Virus record (IMG/VR): IMGVR_UViG_3300027782_003601
Location: 112,193 to 176,192 of that record
Strand: one strand, 5' to 3'
Length of the DNA: 64,000 nucleotides
Source: a virus
In this document: in pieces, positions 34,310 to 42,765 of the stretch
How the letters are laid out: each line of letters starts with the position of its first letter
How positions within the stretch are numbered: position 1 is the first letter of the stretch
Notes under the pieces: model-generated
What the model was told of the DNA's origin: nothing
The model's database searches: none
Seen by the model: the letters and a program-made list of their open reading frames with translations, nothing else
Program-made: the position numbers and the translations under genes

Positions 34310-34771
34310 ATGAGAATAAATAACCAATCATTACAGGGTTATACTGCTACTCAATCATCAACTATAGGATGGAAAGATTGTGCTTGCGGTAAATCTGGTA
34401 CTGCTACATATCAAAATCTTGGTTGTTTACAATTAGCTATAGCAAGTGGAAATCCTGAATTTTACTTTACAACATTTCAAGAAGAAATGGTTTCCAACAA
34501 TAGTGGAGCTGATATACGGCATATAGGATGGACTACGGGTTGGAGAGTTAATACAAGTGGTACTATAGATAATCCAACTGGTAATGGAGCTTGTTATTTT
34601 ATCCCTATGCAATACGATACTGATTCTGGTAATACAGACTGGTCTTATTGGGATATAACTACAAGAGCAATAACATGGAGGGCTTCAAGTTCAGCGGCTA
34701 TATCAACTACTGTGCAACGTGTGATTGTGTATAGTGAACGAATAGATTTAATAACATTATCCTGCGTATAA
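34310..34771 (+). CDS. Small virion-type protein, paralogue A
   Basis: The 153-residue product has no recognised family. It is Thr/Ser/Trp-rich and beta-like, with cysteines near residues 24, 26, 39 and 95 and a SGNPEFYF segment (around 46-53). It shares SGNP and a C-terminal pattern (W-[DN]-x-x-TR, then S/E-R-[IW]-D) with the third gene of this trio at 35247. Three consecutive genes of equal size with such similarity suggest diverged duplicates, perhaps receptor-binding tips exchanged with the fibres. Role is inferred. Confidence 0.6.
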   Translation: MRINNQSLQGYTATQSSTIGWKDCACGKSGTATYQNLGCLQLAIASGNPEFYFTTFQEEMVSNNSGADIRHIGWTTGWRVNTSGTIDNPTGNGACYFIPMQYDTDSGNTDWSYWDITTRAITWRASSSAAISTTVQRVIVYSERIDLITLSCV

Positions 34772-34772
34772 T

Positions 34773-35240
34773 ATGGCTGTTTTAAAATCAAGTGAAGGTA
34801 TATTTCTTAACAATTATTATAGCCTTAATAATAATTATGGATGTAAAATACATACATCAACTAGAACTTGGGCAGCATATGAAACGGGTATTAACATGTT
34901 TCAGATATACCAAAATGGTGCAACAAGTACTAGACAAACAATATCTATAGCTATAAAATGGGCAGCTATAAGAACATCGGGTTCTAAAACAGAATTACCT
35001 GCTCTTCATGCATCTGCTAGAGCTTCTTTAAATACTAATGGTACAATTAGTTTTGATTCTGGGTTTGATTGGCATGCTAATGGAGGTAACGGAATATTAT
35101 GGCCAAGCATTGGAATGGGTGGTTCTTCTTTATTTATAGGTGCAGATAATGGACAATCTACAGGAATAATTGCTTCAATATGGATGAGTATATGTGTTCT
35201 TGAATGGGATAAATTAGTAGTAAATCCTTATAGCGATTAA
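34773..35240 (+). CDS. Small virion-type protein, paralogue B
   Basis: The 155-residue protein is beta-rich and Ser/Gly/Ile/Trp-rich. It begins MAVLKSSEGIFLNN, similar to the third trio member (MARIIGSEGLIMNQ), and ends ICVLEWDKLVVNPYSD, resembling the ends of its neighbours. It is separated from the flanking genes by one and six bases. No enzymatic motif was seen. Shared size, start and end patterns suggest a tandem family of tip or decoration proteins, the middle being most diverged. Confidence 0.6.
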   Translation: MAVLKSSEGIFLNNYYSLNNNYGCKIHTSTRTWAAYETGINMFQIYQNGATSTRQTISIAIKWAAIRTSGSKTELPALHASARASLNTNGTISFDSGFDWHANGGNGILWPSIGMGGSSLFIGADNGQSTGIIASIWMSICVLEWDKLVVNPYSD

Positions 35241-35246
35241 ATTATT

Positions 35247-35678
35247 ATGGCAAGAATAATAGGAAGTGAGGGATTGATTATGAACCAAGCCAATGGTAAT
35301 GCATATTGGATGTTATACTCACGTGGTAAAAATGATGTTGGTCCTTATATCCGATTTACTGTTTCTAGTGGGAATCCTGCCGTACATGTTTTTGTTAAAG
35401 GTTATGCTGCATTTACTCAAACAAATGGTTCTTTTGATTTTAATACATCATCTACATACTTTTTAGGTTTTTATTGTGATACTAGTGGAGGTATAACCGC
35501 TAATACTGGTACTTCATGGGTTAGTGGAGCAAATCTGAGTTTTGGTTGGAATACAGCAACTAGACAAGCTGATTTATGGCTTTCTTCTTCTAGTAATGGT
35601 GGATTTCCCGGTAAAGCAAGTATGGAGTGTGAAATATTTTGTGATAGATGGGATTATGTTTCCATATCCAATTTATAA
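35247..35678 (+). CDS. Small virion-type protein, paralogue C
   Basis: The 143-residue product is the third member of the trio. Its start (MARIIGSEGLIMNQ) resembles paralogue B, and its middle and end (SSGNPAVHVFV, GWNTATRQADLWLSSSS, CDRWDYVSISN) resemble paralogue A. This mixed similarity supports common ancestry of all three. It is beta-rich with no signal peptide and no recognised family. It is followed by a 146-base gap holding a palindrome (35678-35689) and a late-promoter-like motif for the sheath gene. Confidence 0.6.
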   Translation: MARIIGSEGLIMNQANGNAYWMLYSRGKNDVGPYIRFTVSSGNPAVHVFVKGYAAFTQTNGSFDFNTSSTYFLGFYCDTSGGITANTGTSWVSGANLSFGWNTATRQADLWLSSSSNGGFPGKASMECEIFCDRWDYVSISNL

Positions 35679-38124: not shown

Positions 38125-38613
38125 ATGCCAGAAATATTAGAATTTGACAAGATATTTTATAAGAATTTTGAACCAAAACTTGGTAATAGATTCATTATGG
38201 AAATCAATGGTATAGAATCATACATTATCAAAACTGCAAGTAGACCAACATTTACTTCGGAAATAGTTGAATTAGACCATATCAACGTAAAACGTAAGAT
38301 AAAGGGAAAATCTAACTGGGATGATATGAACATCACACTTTATGACCCAATTGTTCCATCAGGAGCACAACAAGTTATGGAGTGGATTAGAACATCACAT
38401 GAATCCCTAACAGGAAGAGATGGATACGCTGCATTCTATAAGAAAGACATTACTTTTTATTTGTTAGGACCAGTAGGTGATAAAATTGAACAATGGACAA
38501 TCAAAGGAGCATTCATTACATCAGCAAACTTTGGTGATTTAGATTGGTCTTCAAATGACCCGGTTTCAATTGAATTAACTTTAACGTTTGATTACGCGGT
38601 ATTAGAGTATTAA
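38125..38613 (+). CDS. 19: Tail tube protein, gp19-like
   Basis: The 162-residue protein matches T4 gp19 in size (163) and pattern: 'FEPKLGNRFIMEINGIESYI' near residue 15, an ASRPTFTSEIVELDHINVKRK segment, and a C-terminal GDLDWSSNDPVSIELTLTFDYAVLEY in pieces. It polymerises into the inner tube beneath the sheath. The gene follows the sheath gene by 50 bases and is followed by a strong terminator. Confidence 0.93.
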   Translation: MPEILEFDKIFYKNFEPKLGNRFIMEINGIESYIIKTASRPTFTSEIVELDHINVKRKIKGKSNWDDMNITLYDPIVPSGAQQVMEWIRTSHESLTGRDGYAAFYKKDITFYLLGPVGDKIEQWTIKGAFITSANFGDLDWSSNDPVSIELTLTFDYAVLEY

Positions 38614-38710: not shown

Positions 38711-39523
38711 ATGGAAGAACAATTAGAACAACAAGTTACGAGAGGTTTAGGTACACCCCAAACTACAACTCAAAGAAACTTCCCATTTGCAACGGAAGTT
38801 ATTTCATTACCATCAAAAGGATTACCATATCCAGAGCATTCGCCATTATCAAAAGGAGAAATAACTCTTAAACTAATGACTGCAAAAGAAGAAGATATTT
38901 TAACTTCTACAAATTTAATTCGTAAAGGAATTCATTTGGATAAGTTATTAGAATCTATTGTAGTAGAGCCTGGTGTTAATATAAATGATATTTTAATTGG
39001 TGATAAAAACGCAATTTTGATTATTACAAGAATGTTGGCATTTGGACCTGAATATGAGGTTACTGTAACAGATTCTGAATCAGATGAGGATGTAATTATA
39101 AAAGTGGATTTATCTAAATTAAAAACAAAAGAAATTGATTATTCTTTATTAAATAGAAATAATGAATACGATTTTACATTGCCAAAATCAAAAAATGAAA
39201 TTAAATTTAAATTACTTACTCATGGAGATGAACTTGCAATTCAAAAAGATGTTGAAGCAAGTGAAAAAATATTAAAACAAGGTAATGAAATTACTACAAG
39301 ATTTAGAAGAATTATTACAGAAGTAGATGGTAATAGAGATTTAGGATATATTAGTAATTTTGTTTCAAATAGATTATTGGCAATGGATTCAAAAGCATTG
39401 AGAAAGCATATTTTAGAACTTACTCCTGATTTGGATTTAAATATGGAATATGAAAATTCAATAGGTGAGACGGAGGCTCTCCGAATCCCGTTTGGGGTTG
39501 ACTTTTTTTACCCTTCCGAGTAA
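38711..39523 (+). CDS. 26: Baseplate hub/tail assembly protein, gp26-like
   Basis: This 270-residue protein resembles the T4 base-plate protein family that includes gp26: 'FATEVISLPSKGLPYPEHSP' (about 26-45), a MTAKEEDILTSTNLIRKG block, then VEPGVNINDILIGDKNAILI. These proteins act in hub/tail assembly rather than as major virion parts. The gene overlaps the next reading frame by 59 bases, with a seven-T run inside the overlap. This arrangement recalls the two-frame tail-assembly chaperones found upstream of tape-measure genes in many tailed phages. The tape-measure gene follows one small gene later. Confidence 0.85.
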   Translation: MEEQLEQQVTRGLGTPQTTTQRNFPFATEVISLPSKGLPYPEHSPLSKGEITLKLMTAKEEDILTSTNLIRKGIHLDKLLESIVVEPGVNINDILIGDKNAILIITRMLAFGPEYEVTVTDSESDEDVIIKVDLSKLKTKEIDYSLLNRNNEYDFTLPKSKNEIKFKLLTHGDELAIQKDVEASEKILKQGNEITTRFRRIITEVDGNRDLGYISNFVSNRLLAMDSKALRKHILELTPDLDLNMEYENSIGETEALRIPFGVDFFYPSE

Positions 39524-39731
39524 TTATTCTGTAGTATTGCATCAAACCATTTTTCAAATGATTTATTATGCAAATGGTGGATTTAATTGGAACGATTTAT
39601 ATTTTATGCCAACTAAACTTAGAGAGTTTTATTGGAAAGAATTATTAAAAACAAAAGAAGAAGAAAGGGAGCAAATTGAAAAATCCAAACCATCAACTTC
39701 AAATAATTCATCTAAAACTAAAAGAAGATGA
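39465..39731 (+). CDS. 51: gp51-like baseplate assembly protein / frameshift extension
   Basis: This frame carries the block 'FQMIYYANGGFNWNDLYFMP' followed by LREFYWKEL, a pattern typical of the small gp51-type proteins that follow gp26 in T4-like phages. It has no good ATG: the first Met lies within the conserved block, and the only upstream start is a GTG at the position given, without a recognisable leader. Expression as a frameshift extension of the upstream gene is therefore attractive. The C-terminal tail (residues 62-88) is Lys/Glu/Ser-rich. The stop is one of only two TGA stops noted in this window. Confidence 0.7.
   Translation: MRRRLSESRLGLTFFTLPSNYSVVLHQTIFQMIYYANGGFNWNDLYFMPTKLREFYWKELLKTKEEEREQIEKSKPSTSNNSSKTKRR
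39503..39509 (+). promoter_or_regulatory. Candidate slippery heptamer (T7) for +1/-2 frameshifting
   Basis: In the upstream frame it reads GAC TTT TTT TAC, four codons before the stop. A +1 or -2 shift here would fuse the upstream product (266 residues) to the downstream frame for a total of about 339 residues. Confidence 0.45.
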
Positions 39732-39766: not shown

Positions 39767-40024
39767 ATGCACAAAAAATTAATAGTAGAAGTTGATATCT
39801 TTGCCAAATTATTATCACTATTTTATGATAAAAAAGCAAAAGGTGAAGAAGATGATTTGGAAACGGTCATTGATTCATCCAATAATGTTGCATTTGATAA
39901 AGCATATAAAGCTTGGAAATCTGATAGTGAAAAACTATTAGTAAGTACTAAAAATTTATTAAAACAATCCGGAGAAAGTACTGCTAAGATAGATGCATTA
40001 TTAAAAAAATACCATAATTATTAA
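39767..40024 (+). CDS. Small helical protein before the tape measure gene
   Basis: The 85-residue, Lys/Asp-rich product is almost fully helical, with no recognised family. A hydrophobic patch VDIFAKLLSLFY (about 9-20) begins it. It lies between the gp26/gp51-like pair and the tape measure, so it may help tape-measure folding or be a minor hub part. Its start follows a late-promoter-like motif. Its stop is 11 bases before the tape-measure ATG. Confidence 0.6.
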   Translation: MHKKLIVEVDIFAKLLSLFYDKKAKGEEDDLETVIDSSNNVAFDKAYKAWKSDSEKLLVSTKNLLKQSGESTAKIDALLKKYHNY

Positions 40025-40035
40025 TAATATTATAG

Positions 40036-42765
40036 ATGGCTAAATCGGACAATCTTAATTCTAGATTACTTTCTTTGAAAGAAGAAACTGACCAACTGAA
40101 AGAAAATCAATTGCAGTTGAAAAAGTTATATGCGTTAGAAGATAAGATAACCAATACTCAATTCAAAAAAATAGAATCATTAGAAACTCAGAACAAAGAA
40201 TTAGAAAAATCTAAAAATAAATACGAAGTATTATTAAAATTACAAAAAGATAAGGCAAAAATATTAAAAGCTGAACTAAATGATTATGATGCTATTGATG
40301 CAAATTTAATTAGTATTGGCAATACTATAGGGAAAAATACAAAAGCATATCAGTTTCAAAAAGAAAAATTAGATAAAACAAAAGGTGTATTAGAAAGTAT
40401 TGGAATTGTTATAAGTAAGAATTCAAAAATTAGTAATAAGGATAAAGGCCAGATGGTAAAGGTCTTAAAAGCTTATAAACAAAACCAATCTTCAATTTTA
40501 GAAGCAAGTAAGTTAAAAATTAAAGGTAAAATAACTGAACAAGAGTATCTTAAAATTATTGAAGAATCTAGAAAAGCATATTCCGATGTAAGGTCTGAAA
40601 TTGAATTATCCGTTGATGCAAGTGAATTATTAGCACAAAACATTACTGATATGGATAATGAAATAAATTCATTTGCAAATTCGGCTAAAAAATCAGCATC
40701 GGTATTAAAAGGTTTTGAAAATTCAATAAATACAATAGCGGGTAGTGGTGTAGATGGTGTCAAAGAATTAGGAGATGTTTTAAAAATTGCCACTAATGGT
40801 GGAAAGGGGTTATCATTAGCATTGGGTGCATTAGCAGGTGTAGCCGCTGGTATGGCTTATAATTTTGGATTAATTGGTAATAAACTCGCTACAATAGCGG
40901 GATATGATTCAAAAATTGCCGGATTAACAGGAGAAATTGATGCAATAAATCAAAAAGTAAATATGGGTGTAAATGGTTTCGGAGAACGAAACTTTGTAAT
41001 GGAACAAGCAATGCTTGATTTTAATTCATCCGTACAACAAATGGGAGCTGCATTTAATGCAGCATCTAAAACGGCATTATTTGGTAATAAATTAGGTAGT
41101 GTTGGATATGGTGCTGCTCAATTACAATTAGCAGGAGTTAGTGCTGAAGAAATTTCAACTTCATTATCCGCTGCAAGTAATGTAATGGGTAAACGGTTAT
41201 CAAGTCAATTGGCTGCCGATATGGCAGTTATGTCAAAAAGAACAGGACAATCTGCTGAAAATCTTGCATCGGTTACAGAATACTTTATGAGAACGGATAA
41301 AGTAGGAGCAAAATCTGCAATTAATATGCAGGAAGGATTAAGAGCAATGGCGGATAGTGCTAAAGTTGATTTGGGCGGAGTAATGGAAGAGGTTGCAGAA
41401 GCATCAAAAGAAGCATTAGGATACCAAATTAAATCAGGTCCTGCATTAGCAAAACAAGTAATTTATGCAAAATCATTAGGTGTTTCATTTAATGATATAG
41501 CAAAAGCTGGTAAAAGTATGGTTTTGAACTATAAAGATAGTATCAAAAACGAAATGCAATTATCGGCAATGTTGGGTAGAAATGTAAATCTTTCAGAAGC
41601 CCGTTCTTTATTTGCACAAGGTAAAAACGATGAAGCATTAAAATCCATTCAAGCACAAGGTTTAGACCCTGCTAAAATGAATATGTTCCAACAAGAAGCA
41701 TTACAACAAGCGTTGGGTGGGTTGGACTTAAATTCAATACAGAAAGTTGCACAAAATCAAGCTAGAAGTGGAGGCAGTTTAACAGAAGGAAATGTAGGTA
41801 CTGGTAATAAAGAATTTTTATCTAGAGTAAAAGAAAGAGAGACTAGTTTAGCAGGAGCTAATGCTATGATTTCGGCAGCAACTGAATTACAAAGAATAGG
41901 ATTAAATGCTGCATCAGAACAACAAAAACAACAAGCTATTATAGATGATGTTGGGGGTATTGCAAAATTAATAAATGAAAGAGACCAACAAGGTTTTTTA
42001 AAGAATGCCGAAACAATGCTAACAACTGCTTTAATAAGTACTGTTGCAACTGTTGTTACAACTTTTTTAATGAATAAAGGTGGTGGGTTATTAAGTAAAT
42101 TTACAGGTAAAGGTATTGAAAAACCTCTTTCAAAAACGGCTGAAAAACCTCTTTTAAAAACGGCTGAAAAACCTCTTTCAAAAACGGCTGAAAAACAACT
42201 TACAAAACAAGCTGAAAAACAACTTGCAAAACAAGGTGGAAGAACCGCAGCAAAAGCTTTGGGAAAATCTTTACTTAAAAAAATACCATTTTTAGGACTT
42301 GGTATGGGTTTATTATTTGCAGGACAAAAAGCGCTTGCAGGCGATTTTACGGGTGCAGGATTGGAAGTGGCAAGTGGTGGGGCATCTATGATTCCTGGAT
42401 TTGGAACTGCTGCTTCTTTTGGAATAGATGCAGCAATTGCAGCTAGGGATATGGGAGCATTTGATAGTAAAAACCCAACTGCTACTGTTAAAAAACCAGG
42501 AACAGTTTCTGCAAAATCAGCTTCTGTGGTAGGAAAGTCATCATTAGTATTATCCGATGTTCAATATCAGACAAGATTACAAATGAAAATGGTTGAATTA
42601 CTTGGTACAAATGCTATATTATTACAATCAATTTTAGAAGAAACAGATAAAGATAAGAGTATTAAATTAAATGGAGTTAAATTAAATACCCAATTAATGT
42701 TTAATGCACGAAAGCAAATGGCAGTTTCAAGAAAAGAAGCAATAGGTACAAACGCATCTATGTAA
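40036..42765 (+). CDS. Tape measure / tail-length protein (gp29-position)
   Basis: The 909-residue protein has a long N-terminal coiled coil (residues 1-120). A Gly/Ala-rich hydrophobic segment (about 257-285, ALGALAGVAAGMAYNFGLIG) follows, then a helical mid-region and another hydrophobic stretch (about 655-680). From 695 to 734 there are five tandem 8-residue repeats. A Gly/Ala hydrophobic region near 755-815 and a helical C-terminus complete it. Size, helicity, hydrophobic segments and place (after the tube and gp26-like genes, before gp48-like) identify a tape measure. At 1.5 angstrom per helical residue it would span roughly 130 nm at most. No lysozyme domain was seen. Confidence 0.78.
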   Translation: MAKSDNLNSRLLSLKEETDQLKENQLQLKKLYALEDKITNTQFKKIESLETQNKELEKSKNKYEVLLKLQKDKAKILKAELNDYDAIDANLISIGNTIGKNTKAYQFQKEKLDKTKGVLESIGIVISKNSKISNKDKGQMVKVLKAYKQNQSSILEASKLKIKGKITEQEYLKIIEESRKAYSDVRSEIELSVDASELLAQNITDMDNEINSFANSAKKSASVLKGFENSINTIAGSGVDGVKELGDVLKIATNGGKGLSLALGALAGVAAGMAYNFGLIGNKLATIAGYDSKIAGLTGEIDAINQKVNMGVNGFGERNFVMEQAMLDFNSSVQQMGAAFNAASKTALFGNKLGSVGYGAAQLQLAGVSAEEISTSLSAASNVMGKRLSSQLAADMAVMSKRTGQSAENLASVTEYFMRTDKVGAKSAINMQEGLRAMADSAKVDLGGVMEEVAEASKEALGYQIKSGPALAKQVIYAKSLGVSFNDIAKAGKSMVLNYKDSIKNEMQLSAMLGRNVNLSEARSLFAQGKNDEALKSIQAQGLDPAKMNMFQQEALQQALGGLDLNSIQKVAQNQARSGGSLTEGNVGTGNKEFLSRVKERETSLAGANAMISAATELQRIGLNAASEQQKQQAIIDDVGGIAKLINERDQQGFLKNAETMLTTALISTVATVVTTFLMNKGGGLLSKFTGKGIEKPLSKTAEKPLLKTAEKPLSKTAEKQLTKQAEKQLAKQGGRTAAKALGKSLLKKIPFLGLGMGLLFAGQKALAGDFTGAGLEVASGGASMIPGFGTAASFGIDAAIAARDMGAFDSKNPTATVKKPGTVSAKSASVVGKSSLVLSDVQYQTRLQMKMVELLGTNAILLQSILEETDKDKSIKLNGVKLNTQLMFNARKQMAVSRKEAIGTNASM
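42118..42237 (+). repeat. Five tandem 24-nt repeats in the tape measure gene
   Basis: Five consecutive 24-base units encode EKPLSKTA-type octapeptides (EKPLSKTA, EKPLLKTA, EKPLSKTA, EKQLTKQA, EKQLAKQG). The first three are nearly identical, so slippage or unequal recombination probably changes copy number. Confidence 0.92.

Follow-up and report, generated by a model that had tools for sequence, protein, structure and literature searches.

Positions 38711 to 39731 of the window (the whole stretch of DNA analyzed here, 64,000 nt, which spans positions 112,193 to 176,192 of the virus record IMGVR_UViG_3300027782_003601 and reaches the end of that 176,192-base record) appear to hold one tail assembly chaperone gene with two readings. 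Comparison with related sequences makes it very likely, with a probability of about 0.86, that programmed +1 ribosomal frameshifting on a stretch of seven T's gives rise to a minor, long form of the chaperone. The majority of ribosomes would end at 39521 and release a short form of 270 residues. In a minority, the peptidyl-tRNA-Phe positioned on a UUU of the run in the P site would slip forward by one base and re-pair with the overlapping UUU (or UUC in some relatives), and the ribosome would read on to 39728, making a long form of 339 residues that has an additional C-terminal domain. If the two forms act like gpG and gpGT of lambda, the short one would serve to coat the tape measure protein and the long one to bring in tail tube subunits.

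The features of the chaperone locus described here lie on the plus strand. The 0-frame ORF, ORF1 (38711 to 39523, 270 aa), encodes the putative short form (TAC-N, with a role like that of lambda gpG). The downstream frame, taken from its GTG codon, extends from 39465 to 39731 (88 aa) and overlaps ORF1 by 59 bases, in agreement with the initial annotation. The T7 run, read as TTT_TTT_T, is located at 39503 to 39509 behind a C at 39502, and the local reading is GAC TTT TTT TAC CCT TCC GAG TAA, with four codons between the two Phe codons and the unshifted-frame stop (TAA, 39521 to 39523). Slippage of the P-site tRNA-Phe from UUU to UUU in the +1 direction would make ACC the next codon. The resulting +1-frame extension (39510 to 39731, 73 aa plus the stop) would form the C-terminal domain of the long form, with a role like that of lambda T. 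The computed fusion has the 339 residues that had been estimated, with the junction ...GVDFF|TLPSNYS....

ORF1 belongs to the family T4_baseplate (PF12322; 8.9e-7, 29.2 bits against a cut-off of 24.5) and also matches PHROG 150 (1.4e-8). The same Pfam profile matches both T4 gp26 (8.8e-64) and T4 gp51 (3.9e-52), so that these two proteins are paralogs. Since PF12322 includes both T4 proteins, ORF1 is not exclusively a gp26, a correction to the earlier label “gp26-like”. AlphaFold gave a confident fold for the short form (pLDDT 85.8); single-sequence folding returned a useless model (pLDDT 32.7). When the short-form model was compared with 350,542 PDB chains, the top match was the HK97 tail assembly chaperone 2ob9, at an E value of 0.72 that is below significance and a TM-score of about 0.46 on the target. 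Its named matches in BFVD are largely T4-type baseplate hub proteins, and that of SP-15 is among the best.

The +1 frame encodes a conserved domain of about 70 residues that is homologous to a small cyanophage protein called “gp51”. In profile comparisons with hhalign, the domain of the window scored 91.7% against the cyanophage domain, and the cyanophage domain scored 97.6% against the C-termini of T4-type gp51 proteins; the direct comparison of the +1 domain with these C-termini was not significant (6.4%). It is through the cyanophage gp51 that the +1 domain is homologous to the C-terminus of T4 gp51.

The genes at the locus occur in the order sheath, tube, chaperone, small ORF and tape measure. 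The tail tube protein (gp19 type) is encoded at 38125 to 38613 (PF06841, 5.8e-11; PHROG 4542, 1.7e-31), the small ORF (85 aa) at 39767 to 40024 has no family match in Pfam or PHROG, and a probable tape measure protein of 909 aa is encoded at 40036 to 42765. The match of the latter to PHROG 167 is weak (0.0043), and immuto, LIS04 and SP-15 have their annotated tape measure gene at the corresponding position. The two overlapping frames are thus located a short way before the tape measure gene, as in G/GT-type loci, and annotated phages have the orthologous order. The initial proposal of a two-frame tail chaperone upstream of the tape measure gene is supported by the overlap, the gene order and the conserved slippery site. 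HTVC008M and phiM12 likewise have a small ORF between chaperone and tape measure. Shortly before the tail sheath gene, at 34310 to 35678, the window contains a row of three ORFs, each about 150 residues long, that are possibly fibre- or decoration-like. Neither a second PF12322 gene nor a second copy of the downstream domain was found in the 176 kb record, and no tRNA that might act on the T7 site was found within the window.

To assess conservation of the site, we compared two sets of loci. A scan of viral contigs yielded 80 relatives and a search of annotated phages yielded 12 records, eight of which were examined; the usable loci of this first set numbered 88, including the window. A wider set of 185 loci added the relatives of immuto and of LR756508, while scans with SP-15, GXN1 and RM378 as queries gave almost no further loci. 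The relatives are mainly metagenomic contigs that are kin to one another, and raw counts are therefore not independent; for this reason thinned counts are given as well. The exact T7 stands in the same frame at 82/88 loci of the first set, far more often than chance would give, and is followed there by the same domain, encoded in the +1 frame. Across the wider set, an in-frame UUU at codon 1 or 2 of the site, followed by a pyrimidine and with the domain in the +1 frame, was found at 183/185 loci. The two codons of the site are TTTTTT (126 loci), TTTCTT (36), TTCTTT (16), TTTCTA (5), TTCTTG (1) and TTCCTT (1). After thinning to 90, 70 and 50% identity, which left out the last two loci (L270 and L275), UUU-pyrimidine was present in all of the 112, 39 and 11 representatives. 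In 179/185 loci the +1 frame remains open beyond the site for 40 codons or more, and the other six are four contig ends together with L270 and L275. Toward its end, the first frame thus carries a conserved slippery site, as in G/GT-type genes. The alignment of relatives that the initial annotation had proposed as a check shows that relatives down to about 27% identity keep the site and the overlap and likewise have no usable start. One relative (L282) has the site AAC TTT TTT TTC with eight T's, the only such case seen among relatives of the +1 type.

The site is also constrained at the level of nucleotides. When codon changes were mapped on a tree of the 185 upstream proteins, the second Phe column, TTT in 142/142 loci, showed 0 synonymous changes and the first Phe column (TTT in 167/185) showed 4, compared to 8 to 22 synonymous changes in six other conserved Phe columns that served as controls. 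TTTTTT is preceded by C, G or A, and by T in 0/126 loci. From codon usage, a base other than T would be expected at about 29 of the 82 T7 loci of the first set; after thinning to 70% identity it is found at 32/32, against an expectation of about 11/29 where T is possible. A T in front of TTTTTT would create U_UUU_UUN, and its absence thus avoids -1 slippage. In front of TTC TTT, where a -1 heptamer cannot form, T does occur (5/16 loci). The canonical -1 heptamer (X_XXY_YYZ) is accordingly absent from the 126 TTTTTT relatives, and the domain lies in the +1 frame.

One candidate stimulator was recognized upstream of the run. The window carries GGGG at 39494 to 39497, in which a Gly codon GGG begins 9 nt before T7, and GGG is used at this place in 107/162 of the Gly-bearing relatives, as compared to 2 to 16 of 146 to 185 at other conserved Gly columns. 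The GGG is spaced 5 nt from the first Phe codon and 8 nt from the second and is missing in some lineages. It may act as a Shine-Dalgarno-like stimulator or as a stimulator of another kind, although its spacing differs from the 3 nt of prfB. RNA structure was considered as a stimulator and dropped: no consistent conserved structure was detected upstream or downstream of the site, with a mean z of about -1, and of near zero downstream in the window and its closest relatives. This lack of a conserved RNA structure weighs against the +1 reading, as does the intrinsically lower slipperiness of UUU_U relative to CUU_U in bacteria (PMC5009743). On the other hand, UUU_Y is itself a known +1-prone site in bacteria (PMC5009743).

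The initial annotation had left the direction of the shift open between +1 and -2, which lead to the same frame. In a -2 shift, of the direction seen in Mu, the tRNA-Phe on the second UUU would move back two bases within T7 and the product would contain an extra Phe. Perfect re-pairing is available for this on T7, and the first Phe codon is mostly TTT as well, so that the T7 group taken alone is compatible with -2. On TTC TTT (16 relatives) and TTT CTA (5 relatives), re-pairing of the P-site tRNA is impossible at -2 and permitted, on UUU or UUC, at +1. These 21 relatives come from several separate lineages (L048, L086, L087 and the L260 group) and keep the domain in the same frame; the sites without T7 that fit +1 only are TTC TTT T, TTT CTA and TTC TTT CGT. 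At the 36 TTT CTT loci, +1 fits on UUU_C or CUU_U while -2 could occur with a G.U pair at the first position. The ambiguity is therefore largely settled for +1, and we consider a -2 shift to be very unlikely. The same variants bear on slippage of RNA polymerase along the T run, by which an mRNA with one U fewer or two more would give the fusion by normal translation. A T7 homopolymer in an AT-rich genome is a plausible substrate; however, TTT CTT, TTC TTT and TTT CTA break the homopolymer, and 57 relatives with runs of only three or four T's have the domain in the same frame. In addition, none of the 126 relatives with TTTTTT has a T ahead of the run, which is thus not extended in the 5' direction. 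We regard transcriptional slippage as extremely improbable.

A further possibility is that the domain is a separate protein that starts at a GTG or TTG through translational coupling at the overlap. The window alone is ambiguous in this respect, as its +1 frame contains the GTG at 39465 to 39467 that had been proposed as the alternative start, and TTG codons at 39492, 39498 and 39537 as well; the GTG is present but, contrary to the earlier claim, is not the sole candidate. Among the relatives, the GTG is missing or interrupted by a stop in many cases, and 61/185 lack any ATG, GTG or TTG in the stretch from the last +1-frame stop to the conserved block, which makes frameshifting the simplest route to the domain. 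A +1-frame stop directly precedes the run in 22/88 loci of the first set. Independently started downstream genes do exist. In L270 (TTC TTG) and L275 (TTC CTT), the only two loci without UUU-pyrimidine, the +1 overlap is lost and the domain starts at its own ATG a few bases past the stop; the two may share one loss event. L088 has a separate downstream gene with the overlap TAATG. This is the pattern that would be expected if the slippery tetranucleotide makes the fusion. Separate initiation would also leave the codon-level conservation of the T's and the missing T before the run unexplained, and we judge it to be highly improbable.

The +1 reading places the window beside systems in which a short and a long chaperone are made by other means. 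In T4, two paralogous genes of the same PF12322 family encode the short gp26 and the long gp51, whereas the window has one gene and a +1 shift. T4 gp26 ends in ...LKEFFELL, where the slippery Phe-Phe is located, and gp51 resembles gp26 with a C-terminal extension that runs about 48 residues beyond the PF12322 match and, through the cyanophage domain, resembles the +1 domain of the window. Cyanophages (Kyanoviridae, such as S-PM2, which has a 57-residue “gp51” after gp26) possess the same two-part gene, with a Phe-Phe junction and the homologous small domain before the tape measure position. In contrast to the clade of the window, where the domain is in the +1 frame and T never precedes TTTTTT, the S-PM2-type loci have T_TTT_TTC with the domain in the -1 frame (80/80), several of them without an ATG. 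Sites of the form T_TTT_TTN were also seen in Aeromonas 65, Vibrio PVA8, Stenotrophomonas YB07, phiM12 and HTVC008M. In the last of these, a Pelagibacter phage (L287), the site is AGT TTT TTT TAA, a longer T run that ends in the stop, with the domain in the -1 frame.

Taken together, these comparisons make it probable that the long form of the PF12322 chaperone is made in three ways at the same Phe-Phe junction, and that the direction of the shift correlates with the presence or absence of a T as the single base just before the run. The proposed users of +1 at UUU_Y are the clade of the window, the Flavobacterium immuto phages, Microcystis phage Mel-JY01, Bacillus SP-15 and others; those of -1 at U_UUU_UUN are the cyanophages, phiM12, Aeromonas 65 and Vibrio PVA8; and T4 would represent the two paralogous genes.

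Outside this family, lambda gpG/gpGT likewise comprises a short and a long form from one gene, made by a frameshift that lies directly before the tape measure gene, although the shift is -1 at another slippery site; the likeness is one of gene organization. At the homologous site Streptococcus phage GXN1 has UUC_UUU_CGU, which resembles UCC_UUU_CGU, the site of the +1 shift of influenza PA-X (PMC3498833); the tetranucleotide logic is the same while protein or host is unrelated. A +1 shift is very likely in a tail gene of HSTV-2 as well (PMC5009743), in an unrelated protein or host, and we liken it to the window by direction only. Compared to PA-X and HSTV-2, the T7 form with a frequent upstream GGG is specific to the clade of the window.

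T4 gp26 and gp51 have been listed as hub assembly chaperones, gp51 being absent from the final particle (PMC3004832), and a major review listed T4 as the exception to the tail-chaperone frameshift, which is conserved otherwise (PMC5009743). The work of Vladimirov, Gautam and Davidson (2022) is known to us through citing papers. Its title, as cited in PMC10885494, presents T4-type gp26/gp51 as tail assembly chaperones and suggests a mechanism other than frameshifting; according to PMC10885494, it assigns one short and one long chaperone gene to T4-like phages, and PMC12846349 credits it with poly-T -1 signals in these phages. The remark in the initial annotation that the T4-type pair is not usually described as two-frame tail chaperones needs correction in that gp26/gp51 of this type have counted as tail assembly chaperones since 2022; the +1 shift itself is new. 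In the literature searched we found no paper on a +1 shift at UUU-pyrimidine in the branch of the window, and the novelty is limited to this shift and to its contrast with -1 at the homologous site.

Contigs carrying the chaperone family were binned with Bacteroidota genomes in 3/5 cases (L280 to L284, labelled Winogradskyella, Flavobacteriales, Sphingobacteriales, an uncultured bacterium and a Woesearchaeota archaeon). These are probably mis-binned phage DNA, and the binning gives a hint of Bacteroidota hosts.

In the records of immuto, LIS04, SP-15 and GXN1 (L081, L083, L084 and L086), the downstream domain is unannotated or is present as a short fragment. A frameshift would explain why this part of the gene is commonly missed, and frameshift-aware re-annotation would recover the chaperone domain in these four phages. 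A large branch of T4-type phages appears to use +1 frameshifting, on a simple UUU-pyrimidine site without obvious RNA structure. With its natural variants, the site offers a set of mutants already made for the study of +1 slippage in bacteria, and the alternation of -1, +1 and gene duplication at a single homologous position would open the evolution of recoding to direct tests.
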